64,000 nt of DNA from Sandaracinus amylolyticus. Lineage in GTDB: Bacteria; Myxococcota_A; Polyangia; Polyangiales; Sandaracinaceae. The notes below the pieces were generated by a model that was not told the DNA's origin, searched no databases, and was given only the letters and a program-made list of their open reading frames with translations. This document shows, piece after piece, positions 52,703-59,965 of the stretch. Location of the stretch: positions 9,300,001 through 9,364,000 of the forward strand of contig NZ_CP011125.1 in the NCBI RefSeq assembly GCF_000737325.1, given 5' to 3'. Both the position numbers and the translations under genes were made by a program. Positions within the stretch are counted from its first letter, which is position 1; the number at the start of each line of letters is the position of its first letter.

Positions 52703-53206
52703 TCACGGCCAGCCGCGCACGATCACCACGCCGAGCAGCACCAGCAGCATCGCGAGCACGACGTTCACCCGACCCAGCATCGACGCTCTGCGCCGCATTC
52801 GCTCCGCCTCGCGCGAGCCCGGGTCCGCCTGCACCGCGCGCGTCGCGCGCGGTCCGTGCACGAAGTCGTGCACCGCGCTGATCGCCAGCACGATCGCGAA
52901 CACCCCGAGCTTCAGCGCGATCGCGCTGCCCACCGACGACCCGAGCCACACCGGATCGACGAAGTCCCCGAGCTCCACGCCGCGCATCGCGAGCTGGAAC
53001 GTCCCCGTCACCAGCAGCACCGCGAAGCACGCCCAGCCCACGTTCCGGAACCGCGCGCCCGTCTGCTGCAGCAGCTTCGCGCCCGCCGCGCGCTCGCCCC
53101 GCCGCATCCACGGCACCACCACGAGCACCAGGAAGAACATCCCGCCGATCCACGTGATCGCCGCGAGGATGTGGAGCCAGACCGAGATCACGTAGAGCGC
53201 GTGCAC
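52703..53206 (-). CDS. CopD/DUF4149-like membrane protein
   Basis: A 167-residue protein with four hydrophobic helices, from GTG 53206 (GAGGGGC just upstream). The first helix, VISVWLHILAAITWIGGMFF, has the His-x(n)-Trp-x-Gly-Gly pattern of copper-resistance D family proteins, and LLVTGTFQLAMRGVEL and VHDFVHGPRA are also family-like. Such proteins sit in the inner membrane and are linked to copper transport or are simply uncharacterised. The frame is also open to an ATG at 53314, but that would leave only 15 bp to the divergent operon start. It may share a regulatory region with the six-gene operon. Confidence 0.65.
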   Translation of the reverse strand: MHALYVISVWLHILAAITWIGGMFFLVLVVVPWMRRGERAAGAKLLQQTGARFRNVGWACFAVLLVTGTFQLAMRGVELGDFVDPVWLGSSVGSAIALKLGVFAIVLAISAVHDFVHGPRATRAVQADPGSREAERMRRRASMLGRVNVVLAMLLVLLGVVIVRGWP

Positions 53207-53271
53207 GCCCCTCACGTACGCGCGCGCCGCGTCGCCGCACCACGCGAAAACCGGCCCGCTCACGTCCGCGC

Positions 53272-53304
53272 TTGACCGACTGACCGAAACGGCGCAATTG
53301 GTCA
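53272..53304 (+). promoter_or_regulatory. possible operator/promoter of the six-gene transport operon
   Basis: In the divergent space, TTGACC (53272-53277) resembles a -35 box and is followed by the direct repeat GACC-GACT-GACC. The inverted repeat TGACC-N14-GGTCA spans 53281-53304. The TetR regulator encoded inside the operon is the natural candidate to bind here. No good -10 box is visible. Confidence 0.35.
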
Positions 53305-53329
53305 TTCGTCCCATTCACGAGGTGAGACC

Positions 53330-54091
53330 ATGCGAACCCTCGCGGCCCTCGCGCTCCCACTCGCGCTCCTCGTCGCGGCGATCGCGCCGACGCACGCCCA
53401 GGACGCCGCGCCCGATCTCGCGACGATCACGCGCCGCCTCGACGACCTCTATCGCTCGAGCGGCACCGTCGCGCGCATCGAGCTCACGGTCGTCACGCCG
53501 CGCCAGACGCGCACGATGCGCATGCGCAGCTGGGCACGCGGCACCGATCGCGCGCTCGTCGTCATCGAGGCCCCCGCGCGCGACGAGGGCACCGCGACGC
53601 TGCGCGTCGATCGCAACCTCTGGAACTACATGCCGCGCATCTCGCGCACGATCCGCGTGCCGCCCTCGATGATGCTCTCGAGCTGGATGGGCAGCGATCT
53701 CACGAACGACGATCTCACCCAGTCCACCTCGTACCGCACCGACTTCACCGGCTCGATCGTCGGGCGCAGCGAGAGCCCGCGCGGATGGCTCGTCCGCTAC
53801 GACGCGCGCGAGGGCGTCGTCGGGCTGTGGCGGCGCATCGAGTTCGTCGTCGCCGAGGGCACGCTCTTGCCCATCGAGGCGCGCCACTTCGATCGCCGCA
53901 TGCAGCTCGCGCGCGTCATGCGCTTCGAGGACGTCCGCGAGCTCGACGGTCGCCGCATCCCGACGCGCATGATCCTCGAGCCGCGCGATCGCGAGGGGCA
54001 TCGCACCGAGATGCGCTACCTCGACATCGACTTCGACGCAGCCGTGCCCGAGAGCACGTTCTCGCTCACCCAGCTCGAGCAGCGCCGATGA
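53330..54091 (+). CDS. LolA-like outer-membrane lipoprotein-sorting carrier
   Basis: A 253-residue exported protein: signal peptide ALALPLALLVAAIAPTHAQ, then a LolA/LolB-type half-barrel (VARIELTVVTPRQTRTMRMR, SWARGTDRALVVIEAPARDE, GTATLRVDRNLWNYMPRISR, MSSWMGSDLTNDDL-like turn, LEPRDREGHRTEMRYLDIDF). This subfamily (COG2834-type outer membrane lipoprotein-sorting protein) carries lipids or lipoproteins across the periplasm. The stop overlaps the next gene's ATG (ATGA). It is the first gene of a six-gene set with two permeases, an ATPase, a TetR regulator and a porin-like protein, so it likely hands over cargo from the ABC transporter to the outer membrane. Confidence 0.85.
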   Translation: MRTLAALALPLALLVAAIAPTHAQDAAPDLATITRRLDDLYRSSGTVARIELTVVTPRQTRTMRMRSWARGTDRALVVIEAPARDEGTATLRVDRNLWNYMPRISRTIRVPPSMMLSSWMGSDLTNDDLTQSTSYRTDFTGSIVGRSESPRGWLVRYDAREGVVGLWRRIEFVVAEGTLLPIEARHFDRRMQLARVMRFEDVRELDGRRIPTRMILEPRDREGHRTEMRYLDIDFDAAVPESTFSLTQLEQRR

Positions 54092-55323
54092 TCGACTCCA
54101 CGACACGCATCGCGTGGCGCAACCTCGGTCGCAGCCGTCGCCGCACCGCGCTCACGCTCGCGGCGATCGCGATCGCCCAGTGCGCGGTGCTGCTCTCCTC
54201 CGGGCTGCTCAACGCGCGCAACGACTGGACCATCGACGCGCTCACGGGTCCGCTGATGGGCCACGTCCAGGTGCACGCGCCGGGATGGCGCGAGGAGCAG
54301 GCGCCCGATCTCGTGATCGATCGCGCGACCGAGCGCCTCGAAGCGCTCCGCGCGACCGAGGGCGTCGCCCAGGCCTACGCGCGCGTCTACGCACCGGCGC
54401 TCGCGGCGCGCGACGTCGATGGTCACGCGGTGATCGTCGTCGGCGTCGACGTCGACGCGGAGTCCGCCGAGAGCGGTCTGCTCGCGGGCATGCCCGAGGA
54501 TCGCCGACCGCGCGGGCGCACCGTGCTGGTGGGATCGCTGCTCGCGCGCGACGCCGGCATCGAGGTCGGCGACGAGCTCGCGCTCGTGGGCTCGGGCGCC
54601 GACGGATCGCTCGCCAACGATCTCGTCACCGTCGCCGGGATCCTCCACACGCCGTTCGATCTCGTGAACCGAACGGGCATCGTGATGCCGCTCGCGACCG
54701 CGCAGGAGACGTTCGCGATGCCCGACATGGCGCACGAGCTCACGATCCGCGGCGCCGGATCGGGCGATCGCGCCGACGCGCTCGCCGCGCGCATCACCGC
54801 GCTCCCGGCGATGCGCGAGCTCGAGGTGCTCCCCTGGCGCGCGCTCGCGCCCGAGATGACCGCGCTCCTCGATCAGTCCGACGTCTTCGGCACGTTCGTG
54901 CTGCTGATCGTGTTCGTCGCCGCGGCCGCGGGCGTCGCGAACACGATGCTGATGGCGACGTTCGAGCGCCGCCGCGAGCTCGGCATGTTGCTCTCGCTCG
55001 GCACCACGCCGCTGCGGCTCGTGCGGATGATCCTCACCGAGGCGGTCGCGCTCGGCGTGCTCGGCGTCGCGATCGGCAGCGTGCTCGGCGGGCTGCTCGT
55101 CGCGTGGCAGGGCGCGGTCGGGATCCCGCTCGCGCCCGGCGCCGAGGAGTCGGTCGATATGGCCGTGTTCGGCGTGAATTTCTCGGGGTTCCTCTTCCCG
55201 TACCTCGACGCGAGCGACTACGTGCCGGGCTTCGTCGGCGTGACGATCGTGTCGATCGTCGCCGCGCTCTGGCCCGCGCTCTTCACCGCTCGGCTCGAGC
55301 CGATGGAGGCGATGCGCTCATGA
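54088..55323 (+). CDS. ABC transporter permease, FtsX/MacB type (first)
   Basis: A 411-residue inner-membrane protein with one N-terminal helix (RTALTLAAIAIAQCAVLLSS), a periplasmic domain of about 230 residues, and three C-terminal helices (FVLLIVFVAAAAGVANTMLM, LTEAVALGVLGVAIGSVLGG, VTIVSIVAALWPALFTARLE). ERRRELGMLLSLGTTPLRLV is the coupling-helix region typical of LolC/LolE/MacB. The start ATG overlaps the LolA-like gene stop, and its stop overlaps the next permease. These type-VII ABC transporters do mechanotransmission or extract lipoproteins from the inner membrane. Together with the second permease it probably forms a heterodimer as in LolCE. Confidence 0.88.
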   Translation: MIDSTTRIAWRNLGRSRRRTALTLAAIAIAQCAVLLSSGLLNARNDWTIDALTGPLMGHVQVHAPGWREEQAPDLVIDRATERLEALRATEGVAQAYARVYAPALAARDVDGHAVIVVGVDVDAESAESGLLAGMPEDRRPRGRTVLVGSLLARDAGIEVGDELALVGSGADGSLANDLVTVAGILHTPFDLVNRTGIVMPLATAQETFAMPDMAHELTIRGAGSGDRADALAARITALPAMRELEVLPWRALAPEMTALLDQSDVFGTFVLLIVFVAAAAGVANTMLMATFERRRELGMLLSLGTTPLRLVRMILTEAVALGVLGVAIGSVLGGLLVAWQGAVGIPLAPGAEESVDMAVFGVNFSGFLFPYLDASDYVPGFVGVTIVSIVAALWPALFTARLEPMEAMRS

Positions 55324-56561
55324 TGATCCGCTCCTCCGCGACCCGTTACGCGCTGCGCAGCCTGCGCCGCAACCCGCGGCGCACGCTGATCTCGATCGTC
55401 GGTCTCGCGTTCGGCGTCGGCGTCGGGCTCGTCGCGCTCTCGTGGGTCGGCGGCCAGGAGGCGATGAGCGTCGACGCCATCGCCGGCGGTGGGCTCGGCC
55501 ACCTGCGCATCGCGCCGCGCGGATGGAACGAGCGCCGCGACGACGCGCTGCGGCTGTCCGGCGACGACGATCTGCTCGCGCGCGTCCGCGCCACCGAGGG
55601 CGTCGCGATCGCGACCCCGCGCGCGCGCACCTCGGGCCTGCTCGGGCTCGGCACCCGCAGCACCCACGTCTCGCTCACCGGCGTCGATCCCGAGACCGAG
55701 CCGCGCGCGCTCCGCTACGTGCAGCGCGTCGCCGAGGGCCGCTATCTCGCGCCCGGCGAAGAAGGCGCGATCGTGCTCGGGCGCGCGATCGCGCACCGCC
55801 TCCGCGCGCAGCTCGAGGACGAGCTCGTCGTGACAGTGGTCGACGACGAGGGCGAGATGCAGAGCGCGCTGCTCGTCGTGGTCGGCATCGTCGACACCGG
55901 GAGCCGTCCGATCGATCAGTCGATCGCGCACGTCGCGCTCTCCGACGTCGAGCGCCTCTCGGGGCGCGAAGGGTTCGCGGAGATCACGATCCTGCTCGAC
56001 GATCTCGCGACGCTGGAGACGACGCGCGCCGCGATCCCCACGCCGGAGGGCAGCGAGGTGCTCTCGTGGCTCGAGATCTCGCCGGAGTTCCGGGCACGCC
56101 TGCAGAGCGGGCGCGCGTTCACGAACGTCGCCGTCGCGATCGTGCTGATCGTCGTGCTGCTCGGCGTCGCGAGCGCGCAGCTCACGAGCGTGCTCGAGCG
56201 ACGCAAGGAGCTCGCGGTGCTCGCCGCGATCGGCATGCGCGGTCGGTCGCTGGTGCGCGTCGTGGTCACCGAAGGGCTGATCCTCGGCGCGCTCGGCGCG
56301 CTGCTCGCGCTCGCGTGGTCGAGCCCGATCCTCCATCGCTGGGCCACTGCCGGCGTGGATCTCTCGTCGATGATGCCGAGCCGCGACGGCCTCGCGTTCG
56401 GCGGCGTGCTGATCGATCCGATCTACCACCCCGCGTTCGGCGCGTGGCTGGTGCCCACCGCGCTGAGTCTCTCGCTGATCGCGACGATCGTCGCGTCCCT
56501 CTACCCCGCCTGGTTCGCGTCGCGCACCGACCCGGCCTCTGCCCTGCGAGTCGACCGATGA
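55320..56561 (+). CDS. ABC transporter permease, FtsX/MacB type (second)
   Basis: A 413-residue protein of the same fold as the preceding one: N-terminal helix RTLISIVGLAFGVGVGLVAL, a periplasmic domain (GLGHLRIAPRGWNERRDD ... EGRYLAPGEEGAIVLGRAIA) and three C-terminal helices (NVAVAIVLIVVLLGVASAQL, GLILGALGALLALAWSSPIL, LSLIATIVASLYPAWFASRT). ERRKELAVLAAIGMRGRSLV is the coupling helix. The two permeases share the fold but differ clearly in sequence, consistent with a heterodimer. ATG 55320 overlaps the stop of the first permease (ATGA), and its stop overlaps the ATPase gene. Confidence 0.88.
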   Translation: MMIRSSATRYALRSLRRNPRRTLISIVGLAFGVGVGLVALSWVGGQEAMSVDAIAGGGLGHLRIAPRGWNERRDDALRLSGDDDLLARVRATEGVAIATPRARTSGLLGLGTRSTHVSLTGVDPETEPRALRYVQRVAEGRYLAPGEEGAIVLGRAIAHRLRAQLEDELVVTVVDDEGEMQSALLVVVGIVDTGSRPIDQSIAHVALSDVERLSGREGFAEITILLDDLATLETTRAAIPTPEGSEVLSWLEISPEFRARLQSGRAFTNVAVAIVLIVVLLGVASAQLTSVLERRKELAVLAAIGMRGRSLVRVVVTEGLILGALGALLALAWSSPILHRWATAGVDLSSMMPSRDGLAFGGVLIDPIYHPAFGAWLVPTALSLSLIATIVASLYPAWFASRTDPASALRVDR

Positions 56562-57262
56562 CCCTCCTCGCCACTGCGACCGAAGTCACCAAGACCTTCA
56601 AGACCGGCGCGCTCGAGGTGCACGCGCTCCGCGGCGTCGATCTCGCCGTGCACGCGCGCGACTTCATGGCGCTCGTCGGCCCGAGCGGCAGCGGGAAGAC
56701 CACGCTGCTCAACCTGCTCGGCGCGCTCGATCGCCCGACGAGCGGCGAGGTCGAGGTGCTCGGCAAGAAGCTCGGCGCGCTGAGCAAGGCCGCGCGCGCG
56801 AAGCTGCGGCTCGCGTCGCTCGGCTTCGTGTTCCAGGCGTACAACCTGGTCCCCGTGCTGACCGCCGCGGAGAACGTCGAGCTGATCCTCGAGCTGCAGG
56901 GCATGGGCGCGCGCGAGCGCCGCGCGCGGGCGCTCGACGTGTTGCTCTCGCTCGGCCTCGGCGAGCTCGCGAACCGTCGCCCGAACGAGATGAGCGGTGG
57001 ACAGCAGCAGCGCGTCGCGGTCGCGCGCGCGGTCGCGTCGCGCCCCGAGCTCGTGCTCGCCGACGAGCCCACCGCGAACCTCGACGGCAAGAGCGCCGAG
57101 CAGCTGATGCTGCTGATGCGCCGCCTCCACGAAGAGCACGGCACGACATTCGTCTTCAGCACCCACGACCCGCGCATCGTCGCGCACGCGACGCGCATCG
57201 TGAGCATGGAGGACGGGCGTATCGTCTCCGACGAGACCAAGGATCGCGCGAGCGCAGCATGA
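56558..57262 (+). CDS. ABC transporter ATPase, LolD/MacB type
   Basis: A 234-residue ATPase with all motifs: Walker A GPSGSGKT (41-48), Q-loop Gln93, signature MSGGQQQR (145-152), Walker B LVLADEP (165-171) and switch His203. The sequence LRGVDLAVHARDFMALVGPS and YNLVPVLTAAENVELILELQ are typical of the LolD/MacB/FtsE branch. It drives the two FtsX-type permeases encoded upstream. Start and stop overlap both neighbours (ATGA on each side). Confidence 0.93.
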   Translation: MTLLATATEVTKTFKTGALEVHALRGVDLAVHARDFMALVGPSGSGKTTLLNLLGALDRPTSGEVEVLGKKLGALSKAARAKLRLASLGFVFQAYNLVPVLTAAENVELILELQGMGARERRARALDVLLSLGLGELANRRPNEMSGGQQQRVAVARAVASRPELVLADEPTANLDGKSAEQLMLLMRRLHEEHGTTFVFSTHDPRIVAHATRIVSMEDGRIVSDETKDRASAA

Positions 57263-57936
57263 CGACGAAGTGGACGAAGGAAGAGCTCGAGCGCCGGTTC
57301 CGCCACTACCTCGGGGACGAGGACGACGACTCGGCCCAGGCGCGCAAGCGCCGCCGCATCCTGCGCGCCGCGCACGAGCTCTTCCTCGCGCAGGGTTATC
57401 GCAAGACCAGCGTCGACGACGTCGCGCGCAAGGCCGAGGTCGCGAAGGGCACGGTCTACCTCTACTTCCCCAACAAGGGCACGCTGCTCGAGGCCGCGAT
57501 CGCGCTCGAGAAGCGCGGCCTGATGAAGCGCCTCGGGCCGCTCTTCGACGGCTCGATCCCCAAGCGCGAGCGCCTGCTGCGCTACCTCGAGATCACGTTC
57601 ACCAGCGGGCGCGACATGCCGCTCGTCGCGCGCATGCTGACCGGCGACAGCGAGCTCTGGGCGGCGCTCGAGGACATCGGCATGGAGGCGATCACCCAGC
57701 GCCAGGCCGAGGGCGCGGAGTTCCTGATGGAGCTCATCGAGGACGCGGTGCCCGGTGTGCTCACCGACGAGCAGAAGCGCGAGCGCGCCGAGGTGATCAT
57801 CGGCGTCGGGTTCTCGGCGGGCATGCTGCTCGACGAGCGCACGCGCAGCGGACGCTCGCTCGACGCGTTCGTCCGCTCGCTCTCCGAGATGCTCACGTTC
57901 GGCGTCGCGGGGAGACGACCCGAGAAGAAGCGATGA
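57259..57936 (+). CDS. TetR-family regulator inside the transport operon
   Basis: A 225-residue protein. After a charged N-terminal stretch, the TetR helix-turn-helix is at residues about 32-78: RRRILRAAHELFLAQGYRKT, SVDDVARKAEVAKGTVYLYF, PNKGTLLEAAI. The C-terminal ligand-binding part (YLEITFTSGRDMPLVARMLT ... LMELIEDAVPGVLTDEQKRE) has no named subfamily. Its place between the ATPase and the porin-like gene, with ATGA overlaps on both sides, implies that it controls this operon and is made in fixed ratio to the transporter. A candidate site is described upstream of 53330. Confidence 0.9.
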   Translation: MTTKWTKEELERRFRHYLGDEDDDSAQARKRRRILRAAHELFLAQGYRKTSVDDVARKAEVAKGTVYLYFPNKGTLLEAAIALEKRGLMKRLGPLFDGSIPKRERLLRYLEITFTSGRDMPLVARMLTGDSELWAALEDIGMEAITQRQAEGAEFLMELIEDAVPGVLTDEQKRERAEVIIGVGFSAGMLLDERTRSGRSLDAFVRSLSEMLTFGVAGRRPEKKR

Positions 57937-59204
57937 GAGCCCCAGCCGCGATCGCGCTCGCGATCCTGCTGACCACGACGACGGCCCACGCGCGCGATCT
58001 CTTCGAGAGCGACGACGGCGAATTCCGCCTCGTGCTCCGCAGCTCGCTCAAGGGCAGCTGGCTGCTCGCGTTCCCCGCCGACGATCCCACGATCGACGAA
58101 GAGCCCGGCGGCGCCGCGCTCTTCCGGCTGCGCTTCGAGCTCGGCGCGCGCCTCGGCGAGTACGTCAGCGCGCAGGTCGCGTACGAGCAGCGCGCGCTCG
58201 CCGCGTCGTCGACCGGCATCGGGTTCGGCCTCTTGCCCTCGGTGGCGACGCCGCCGTTCCGCCTCGCCGCGCTCGACTGGGCGATCGTCGACGACGCGCC
58301 CTCGTACGCGCACCGCCACGAGCTCGACCGCGCGTTCGTCTCGGTGCACCTGCCCTTCCTCGAGCTCACGGTCGGACGCCAGGCGATCGGCCTCGGCCGC
58401 GGCGTGATGTTCAGCGCGGTGGATCTGTTCGCGCCCTTCGCGCCCGCGGAGATCGATCGCGAGTGGCGCCGCGGCGTCGACGCGGTGCACGCCGAGCTGC
58501 GCATCCCCGAGATCAGCACGCTCTCGGGCGATCTGATCGCGGTGTTCGGCAACGTCGAGAGCGGCGACCTCGAGAGCTGGTCGCTGATCGGCCGGCTGCG
58601 CGCGACGATCGGCGACGTCGACGGCGAGCTGCTGGTCGGACGCCGCGGCGAGGACACGATCGTCGGCGGCACCGTGAGCGCGACGATCGGCGACGCCGAG
58701 GCGCACGGCGAGCTCGCGTTCTTCGGCACCGACGGCCGCGGCGTCGACGGCGGTCTCGCGGGCACGCGCGGCGTGGTGATGAAGGCGCTGATCGGCGGCT
58801 CGTACGTGATCGACGTGTGGCGCGGGCTGCGCGTCGCGCTCGAGTACCACTACTCGGGCTTCGGCATCGACGACATCGGCGCGCGTCCCGGCATCCTCGC
58901 GGACCCGGCGTTCCAGGCGCGCTTCCTCCGCGGCGACTCGCAGATCCTCGGCCGCCACGCGATCGCGCTCGCGCTGAACACCGAGCTCACCGACGAGCTC
59001 GCGGTGGGCACGTCGTGGCTACAGAGCCCGGTCGACGGCTCGGGCATGGTGCTCACGTCGTTCACCTGGATCGCGAGCGACATGCTCACGCTGCTGCTCA
59101 ACGGCTCGGTCCCGTTCGGCACCGCACCGGTCGCCGGAGTGCCGCAGAGCGAGTGGGGCAGCAGCGCGATCACGGTGTTCCTCGGCGCGCGCATCTACGA
59201 CTGA
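57933..59204 (+). CDS. porin-like outer-membrane beta-barrel, last gene of transport operon
   Basis: A 423-residue exported protein (signal AIALAILLTTTTAHA). The mature chain is a series of amphipathic strands (FRLVLRSSLKGSWLLAFPAD, ARLGEYVSAQVAYEQRALA, ELRIPEISTLSGDLIAVFGN, VGRRGEDTIVGGTVSATIGD, YHYSGFGIDDIGARPGI) ending SSAITVFLGARIYD, an aromatic-ending terminal strand of outer-membrane barrels. LTVGRQAIGLGRGVMFSAVD resembles a phrase seen in DUF1302/alginate-porin-like proteins. Its start overlaps the TetR stop. It may receive or display the cargo delivered by the LolA-like carrier, replacing LolB. No terminator with a T-run is seen; a hexamer inverted repeat follows. Confidence 0.72.
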   Translation: MRAPAAIALAILLTTTTAHARDLFESDDGEFRLVLRSSLKGSWLLAFPADDPTIDEEPGGAALFRLRFELGARLGEYVSAQVAYEQRALAASSTGIGFGLLPSVATPPFRLAALDWAIVDDAPSYAHRHELDRAFVSVHLPFLELTVGRQAIGLGRGVMFSAVDLFAPFAPAEIDREWRRGVDAVHAELRIPEISTLSGDLIAVFGNVESGDLESWSLIGRLRATIGDVDGELLVGRRGEDTIVGGTVSATIGDAEAHGELAFFGTDGRGVDGGLAGTRGVVMKALIGGSYVIDVWRGLRVALEYHYSGFGIDDIGARPGILADPAFQARFLRGDSQILGRHAIALALNTELTDELAVGTSWLQSPVDGSGMVLTSFTWIASDMLTLLLNGSVPFGTAPVAGVPQSEWGSSAITVFLGARIYD

Positions 59205-59238: not shown

Positions 59239-59343
<105 letters not shown>

Positions 59344-59404
59344 CGTCGACGAACCTCCCCATTCGTCGAGCACACCCTCTCCCGCGCCGTTTTACCCTCT
59401 CCTC

Positions 59405-59965
59405 ATGCGCCGCTTCCTCGCCCTCGCGCTCCTCCTCACCGCCTGCGCACAGCACACCGCGACCACGCGCTCCACGTCTCCGAGCATCGCGCCCGGCGGC
59501 GACACCAGCGCGAGCGACGCGCCCTCCGATCCTCGCCTCCGCGCCGTCCTCGACGCGCACAACACGCGGCGCGCCGAGCACTGCGCGCCGCCGCTCTCGT
59601 GGTCCGACGAGCTGGCGCGCACCGCGCAGTCGTGGGCCGACGATCTCGCGCGACGCGGCTGCGCCTTCGAGCACAACCGCACGCCGTACGGCGAGAACCT
59701 CGCCGCGGGCACCAGCGGCACGCTCTCTCCCCAGGCGGTCGTCGACATGTGGCACCGCGAGCGCGAGCGTTATCGCTTCCGCAACGGTCGCTTCTCGATG
59801 CAGACCGGGCACTTCACCCAGGTCGTGTGGCGCGGCACCGCGCGCGTCGGCTGCGGCACCTCGACCTGCAACGGCATGGACGTCTGGGTGTGCAACTACG
59901 ATCCGCCGGGCAACGTGCAGGGCCAGTTCGACGAGAACGTGCTCCCGACGTCGTGTCGGCGCTGA
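59405..59965 (+). CDS. CAP-domain (SCP/PR-1) lipoprotein
   Basis: A 186-residue lipoprotein (FLALALLLTACA, Cys14) with a Ser/Thr/Asp linker and a complete CAP domain: LDAHNTRRAEHCAPPLSWSD, FEHNRTPYGENLAAGTSGTL, VDMWHRERERYRF, TGHFTQVVWRGTARVGCGTS and VWVCNYDPPGNVQGQF. The His and Glu of the CAP cavity and the paired Cys are present. CAP proteins are secreted and bind sterols or lipids or act on polymers; bacterial functions are mostly unknown. The start has no good ribosome site. A hexamer repeat lies upstream. Confidence 0.85.
   Translation: MRRFLALALLLTACAQHTATTRSTSPSIAPGGDTSASDAPSDPRLRAVLDAHNTRRAEHCAPPLSWSDELARTAQSWADDLARRGCAFEHNRTPYGENLAAGTSGTLSPQAVVDMWHRERERYRFRNGRFSMQTGHFTQVVWRGTARVGCGTSTCNGMDVWVCNYDPPGNVQGQFDENVLPTSCRR

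Follow-up and report, generated by a model that had tools for sequence, protein, structure and literature searches.

The six-gene operon at positions 53330-59204 of a 64,000-nucleotide stretch of the Sandaracinus amylolyticus chromosome (hereafter the window; NZ_CP011125.1, positions 9300001-9364000 of a single-contig 10.3-Mb genome) encodes a LolA_like periplasmic carrier, two FtsX-type permeases, an ABC ATPase, a TetR regulator, and a predicted outer-membrane beta-barrel (Table 1). On balance, we lean towards reading it as a TetR-controlled, ABC-powered exporter that carries a lipid or other hydrophobic compound across the whole envelope, where we infer the direction of transport, the cargo, complex formation, and repression. 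Carrier, permeases, ATPase, and barrel occur together across Myxococcota and beyond, in several gene orders, which bears out an earlier proposal (the original prediction, made from the letters of the window) that they form one coherent, self-contained system. No description of this module was found in the open-access literature.

Conservation and composition of the module

Our sample comprised 379 Myxococcota genomes, of which 202 were matched by a barrel profile built from 12 homologues and 322 by a LolA_like profile. Linkage was counted on the best 150 barrel and the best 150 LolA_like places. For 102 of the best 150 barrel matches, a listed LolA_like match lay no more than 8 kb away and always on the same strand; this number rejects chance as the cause of the linkage. 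The two genes were directly adjacent in seven of these pairs and separated by about 2.5-5.5 kb in 95, the size of two FtsX permease genes plus an ABC ATPase gene. Sixty loci were annotated with profiles; 40 of them had been picked since both genes were listed, so that they show composition and not frequency. The five-part core was mostly arranged as LolA-FtsX-FtsX-ABC-barrel, while the reversed barrel-ABC-FtsX-FtsX-LolA order occurred ten times, FtsX-FtsX-ABC-LolA-barrel twice, and LolA-barrel-FtsX-FtsX-ABC once. A tree of LolA_like plus barrel contained at least five order changes, with the reversed order as one well-supported clade. The core order of the window was also present in Vibrio campbellii (L102) and in Persicobacter (L104; Bacteroidota).

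Twenty partner-less places were examined on each side. Nine of those on the barrel side turned out to be full modules whose LolA gene lay outside the listed matches, six were at contig ends with an ABC or FtsX gene beside the barrel, and five were lone barrels. On the LolA side there were seven full modules, seven places at contig ends, three ABC-FtsX-FtsX-LolA sets without a linked barrel, and three lone LolA genes. Three genomes (G312, G161, G424) have a barrel-less module (L198, L200, L210) and a lone barrel of the same family elsewhere (L178, L183, L185, L188). As most exceptions are explained by unlisted matches or contig ends, and these three genomes keep a lone barrel, the barrel is a regular partner of the module and usually linked to it. 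The lone barrels look as if the partnership persisted in trans.

The original prediction expected homologous clusters to share both the barrel and TetR. This held for the barrel, which is present in most of them, and for TetR in about half: the regulator accompanies the module in 30/58 loci, internally in the window's family and directly upstream in most others. Because it is found in only these 30, TetR is an accessory of the module. The 78 immediate neighbours other than TetR matched 104 Pfam families, none of which occurred in more than two neighbours, and since these immediate neighbours are unrelated, the module is self-contained; no hint to the cargo was found among the 78 genes.

Operon layout

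All six open reading frames are intact, with a GC content at third codon positions (GC3) of 0.93-0.96, and the closest match among named relatives is a Sandaracinaceae metagenome-assembled genome. Pfam, NCBIfam, and family-level profiles confirmed the predicted parts list, and the five 4-bp ATGA overlaps that had been reported are all present (at 54088, 55320, 56558, 57259, and 57933). The second junction reads ATGATGA, so that an alternative start 3 bp downstream with a 1-bp overlap is also possible. Overlaps of 4 bp occurred at 60/236 module junctions in homologous loci versus 43/356 other co-directional junctions. These counts reject the ATGA chain as a conserved feature of the module; it is a trait of the window's lineage. 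Translational coupling is plausible in this operon, although it would not be a conserved property. A scan for sigma-70 promoters and terminators found nothing, a result of little weight at 72% GC.

Table 1. Coordinates of the operon and its upstream elements in the window
Feature	Position	Strand	Basis
Extra half-site TTGACC, 8 bp before the first half-site of the palindrome	53272..53277	+	sequence
Candidate TetR operator TGACCGAAACGGCGCAATTGGTCA, 24-bp palindrome TGACY-N14-RGTCA	53281..53304		co-occurrence with TetR
Probable ribosome-binding site AGGTGA of the LolA_like gene	53320..53325	+	sequence; inference
LolA_like periplasmic carrier, 253 aa	53330..54091	+	PF17131; N-terminal signal peptide by eye
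Permease 1, MacB_PCD+FtsX, LolC/E-like, 411 aa	54088..55323	+	Pfam; TIGR02212 78 bits
Permease 2, MacB_PCD+FtsX, LolC/E-like, 413 aa	55320..56561	+	Pfam; TIGR02212 101 bits
ABC ATPase, LolD/DevA/MacB type, 234 aa	56558..57262	+	Pfam; TIGR02211 220.6 bits
TetR-family regulator, 225 aa	57259..57936	+	TetR_N E 3e-17; recognition-helix region AKGTVYLYF
Predicted outer-membrane beta-barrel, DUF1302-like, 423 aa	57933..59204	+	family-level profiles; N-terminal signal peptide by eye

Carrier and engine are distinct from housekeeping Lol

The carrier matches LolA_like (PF17131) with an E of 4e-41 and 141 bits against a gathering score of 30. This was its sole Pfam match at E up to 1, with none to LolA (PF03548), and the gene is the only PF17131 copy of the genome. 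Its profile also matches the solved LolA-fold structures 4z48, 3buu, 9tp6, and 3bk5 (E 9e-26 to 2e-30). In Pfam, both permeases match MacB_PCD+FtsX (E about 1e-12 to 1e-13) and the ATPase matches ABC_tran (E 6e-32). The permeases miss the cut-off of the lolCE equivalog TIGR02212 with their 78 and 101 bits versus 362, and the ATPase misses that of LolD (TIGR02211) with 220.6 versus 307.75 bits; among curated NCBIfam models it scores near DevA, LolD, and MacB. Elsewhere, the genome carries four LolA genes of the PF03548 family as well as two loci that match lolCE far better, while no PF03550 match for LolB was found across the whole genome. The set is hence distinct from the housekeeping lol genes, given that these are encoded elsewhere and the module falls below the curated LolCE and LolD cut-offs. 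Membership in canonical Lol (LolABCDE) can be rejected by the missed lolCE and LolD cut-offs, the lack of a PF03548 carrier, and the lack of LolB. Compared to E. coli LolABCDE, the module has a similar heterodimeric FtsX-type permease with an ATPase and a LolA-fold carrier, whereas the carrier belongs to PF17131 instead of PF03548, a barrel stands in place of LolB, and a TetR is encoded locally. With MacAB-TolC it shares the MacB periplasmic core and FtsX domains, but there is neither a MacA adaptor nor TolC, the ATPase is not fused to the permease, and the carrier has a soluble LolA fold. The engine probably works like LolCDE or MacB.

A DUF1302-like barrel and related cassettes with other engines

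The barrel of the window had no Pfam match above cut-off, including PF06980, and no match to Omp85-type families at E up to 1. At the level of its family, DUF1302 was matched weakly by 12/54 members while others matched Wzi or alginate export. Profile-profile comparison gave an E of 9e-12 to DUF1302 proteins from LolA_like-MMPL clusters and a short match only to more distant DUF1302 proteins. We call the barrel DUF1302-like because of this family-level evidence (the 12 weak matches and the E of 9e-12), and the profiles indicate that it is homologous to the barrels of the MMPL-linked clusters. No sequence relative of the module barrel was found in PDB.

These clusters combine the same carrier and barrel types with an RND/MMPL pump. 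LolA_like+MMPL+DUF1302 clusters are present in Prevotella and Haliovirga, and LolA_like+MMPL in Pseudoalteromonas and in the window's own taxonomic order; the PF17131 members of MMPL clusters also match DUF1329. One example from the window's own order (L042, 9546-13118, minus strand) is a LolA_like gene paired with an MMPL/RND pump and not with an ABC transporter.

The closest characterised relative is AmeABCD of Castellaniella defragrans, where an RND/HAE3 pump is combined with a DUF1329 protein of the LolA superfamily and with a DUF1302 protein; its deletion lowered monoterpene tolerance and increased Nile Red accumulation (PMC6394551). AmeABCD and the module of the window alike unite a LolA-superfamily periplasmic protein, a barrel (DUF1302 in AmeABCD, DUF1302-like in the window), and an inner-membrane pump in one cassette whose make-up is kept among relatives. 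They differ in the engine, proton-driven RND/HAE3 in AmeABCD and two FtsX permeases plus an ABC ATPase in the window, and in the barrel, which is DUF1302 in AmeABCD while that of the window itself stays below the DUF1302 cut-off. AmeABCD has an additional periplasmic protein, AmeC, and no TetR is mentioned in the passages on it (PMC6394551). Another relative, the seven-gene BBJ23-BBJ29 cluster reported in Borrelia only, likewise has a LolA-like protein, a MacB-like ABC transporter whose ATPase is a separate protein, and a barrel in the outer membrane, and a role in lipoprotein delivery is raised as a possibility by its authors (PMC13078400). It differs by its Omp85-type barrel, a single permease as proposed homodimer, two TPR proteins, and the lack of TetR (PMC13078400). 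On long-chain alkane, Thalassolituus raises the level of a porin together with that of an MMPL protein containing a LolA-like domain (PMC6304351).

A plasmid of Enterobacter bugandensis (pEC105227L; L172, 941-9934) groups genes for LolA_like, an FtsX permease, and an ABC ATPase with those for a TPR-like protein and a protein of 462 aa; beta-ketoacyl synthases and an acyl carrier protein (ACP) S-malonyltransferase are encoded around them. This set might be a biosynthetic cluster with its own exporter, and its ketoacyl-synthase and malonyltransferase context fits the export of a newly made lipid or polyketide. Based on AmeABCD, the MMPL clusters, the Enterobacter set, and Borrelia BBJ23-29, we infer a carrier-barrel pair that could be driven by either engine and would have lipid or hydrophobic cargo.

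TetR and its candidate operator

The strict palindrome TGACY-N14-RGTCA, with the same length of 24 bp, precedes the first gene in 11/30 TetR-bearing loci and in 0/28 TetR-less ones, and was found in 0.6% of random 411-bp windows. One further TetR-bearing locus (L142) has the palindrome with one mismatch. Its position varies with the gene order: it lies before lolA when TetR is internal and before tetR when tetR leads the operon. The TGAC-N24-GTCA spacing generated by the extra half-site is seen again in 8/30 TetR-bearing loci. A looser TGAC-N16-GTCA was present in 12 loci, including L129, where the TetR is of another type and the site is probably due to chance. Moreover, a YL-type recognition helix (YLYF, YLHF, or YLYY) was found in 12/12 TetRs of the operator loci (the 11 strict ones plus L142) and in 0/18 other TetRs, many of which have YYYF. 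A second candidate operator resembling TTTAGACC-N-GGTCTAA precedes tetR in L120, L123, L124, L125, L129, and L108, with the helix YYYF. These patterns suggest that the module acquired a TetR more than once, in each case with a separate operator before the operon, and that the TetR of the window may bind the palindrome upstream of lolA. The central idea of the original prediction, a single coherent and regulated route from the inner to the outer membrane, stands as the more likely reading; this candidate operator tracks one TetR type, and about half of the loci have a TetR.

Divergent from the operon, a CopD/DUF4149-like membrane protein is encoded at 52703-53314 (minus strand). Its more likely start is near 53263, which would place the candidate operator between both genes, where it could control both.

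Proposed mechanism and alternatives

In the mechanism we favour, the two FtsX-type permeases and two copies of the ATPase would assemble into a type VII complex akin to LolCDE and MacB, which extracts an amphipathic or hydrophobic molecule from the inner membrane. The LolA_like protein would shield this cargo across the periplasm, and the DUF1302-like barrel would take it and insert it into, or release it through, the outer membrane. TetR, bound to the palindrome before lolA, would keep the operon repressed and be released by a ligand that is probably the cargo itself or a compound related to it. By analogy with the relatives, a small lipid or hydrophobic compound is a more likely cargo than a lipoprotein. 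The special lipoprotein that had been offered as an alternative cargo is less likely, given that AmeABCD exports hydrophobic compounds (PMC6394551) and that RND-driven twins of the cassette exist.

Several points weigh against this mechanism. The barrel was identified through remote profiles only, and the relatives behind the hydrophobe analogy have another engine. On the Enterobacter plasmid, the 462-aa neighbour has no Pfam match, and its match to the barrel profile is confined to the C-terminal part of that profile. The operator-bearing loci amount to three clades, and the number of phylogenetically independent pairs was too small for a test on them to be significant. AlphaFold models of barrel and LolA_like from two-sequence alignments had a predicted local distance difference test (pLDDT) score of 32 and 35; they are meaningless and were left unused.

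A second, dedicated Lol pathway for special lipoproteins, in which the barrel would replace LolB as acceptor or pass the lipoprotein to the surface, seems rather unlikely. It would agree with permeases that score best versus lolCE, with LolD among the two best curated models of the ATPase, with a genome without LolB, with the CAP-like protein carrying a lipoprotein-like signal just downstream of the barrel gene, and with the Borrelia precedent of possible lipoprotein delivery (PMC13078400). However, the scores fall far below every curated lolCE and LolD cut-off, the genome already has four LolA genes of PF03548 along with two loci that match lolCE better, and no gene family is consistently linked to the module. 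The RND-driven twins also favour a hydrophobe, since RND/MMPL pumps are not known to extract lipoproteins. Drug or solvent efflux by a MacB-like mechanotransmission pump, which would use the LolA_like protein as its periplasmic partner and the barrel as its exit duct and would be induced by xenobiotics via TetR, is improbable. Efflux pumps are typically controlled by a local TetR and the permeases are of the MacB_PCD+FtsX type, yet no MacA-type adaptor or TolC-type channel is found in the module or conserved beside it, LolA folds are soluble carriers and not hairpin adaptors, and the ATPase is a separate protein. The protection against monoterpenes by AmeABCD would agree with such efflux (PMC6394551). 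Least probable is retrograde uptake, where the barrel would admit a hydrophobic compound and the carrier pass it to the inner membrane. DUF1302-type barrels do resemble porins, but the FtsX/MacB/LolCDE-type transporters studied so far act outward from the inner membrane. The co-induction on long-chain alkane in Thalassolituus (PMC6304351) would fit uptake, whereas AmeABCD acts as an exporter (PMC6394551).

Going beyond the favoured exporter, we tentatively propose, at somewhat less than even confidence, that the module represents a widespread, undescribed ABC-powered lipid pathway from the inner to the outer membrane, with a LolA-fold carrier and a beta-barrel acceptor replacing LolB, and that carrier and barrel are a portable unit driven by either RND/MMPL or FtsX-ABC engines. 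The module bears on two broader questions, namely by what route lipids and hydrophobic compounds pass the periplasm on their way to the outer membrane and what takes them up there where LolB is missing. Having an engine, a carrier, a barrel, and a regulator of its own, the six-gene cassette offers a compact test system for them, with a barrel family in 202/379 Myxococcota genomes and the cassette also in Vibrio and Bacteroidota. If RND or ABC engines indeed drive the carrier and barrel, this would define a modular class of trans-envelope exporters that is now hidden under names like 'outer membrane lipoprotein-sorting protein' and 'DUF1302'.

Downstream genes

About 200 bp past the barrel gene, a CAP/SCP-like protein with a lipoprotein-like signal (LLLTAC), identified by eye, is encoded at 59405-59965 (plus strand); homologous modules do not consistently have this gene beside them. 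Between it and the barrel gene lie short tandem CACGAC/GACCAC repeats (59290-59345).

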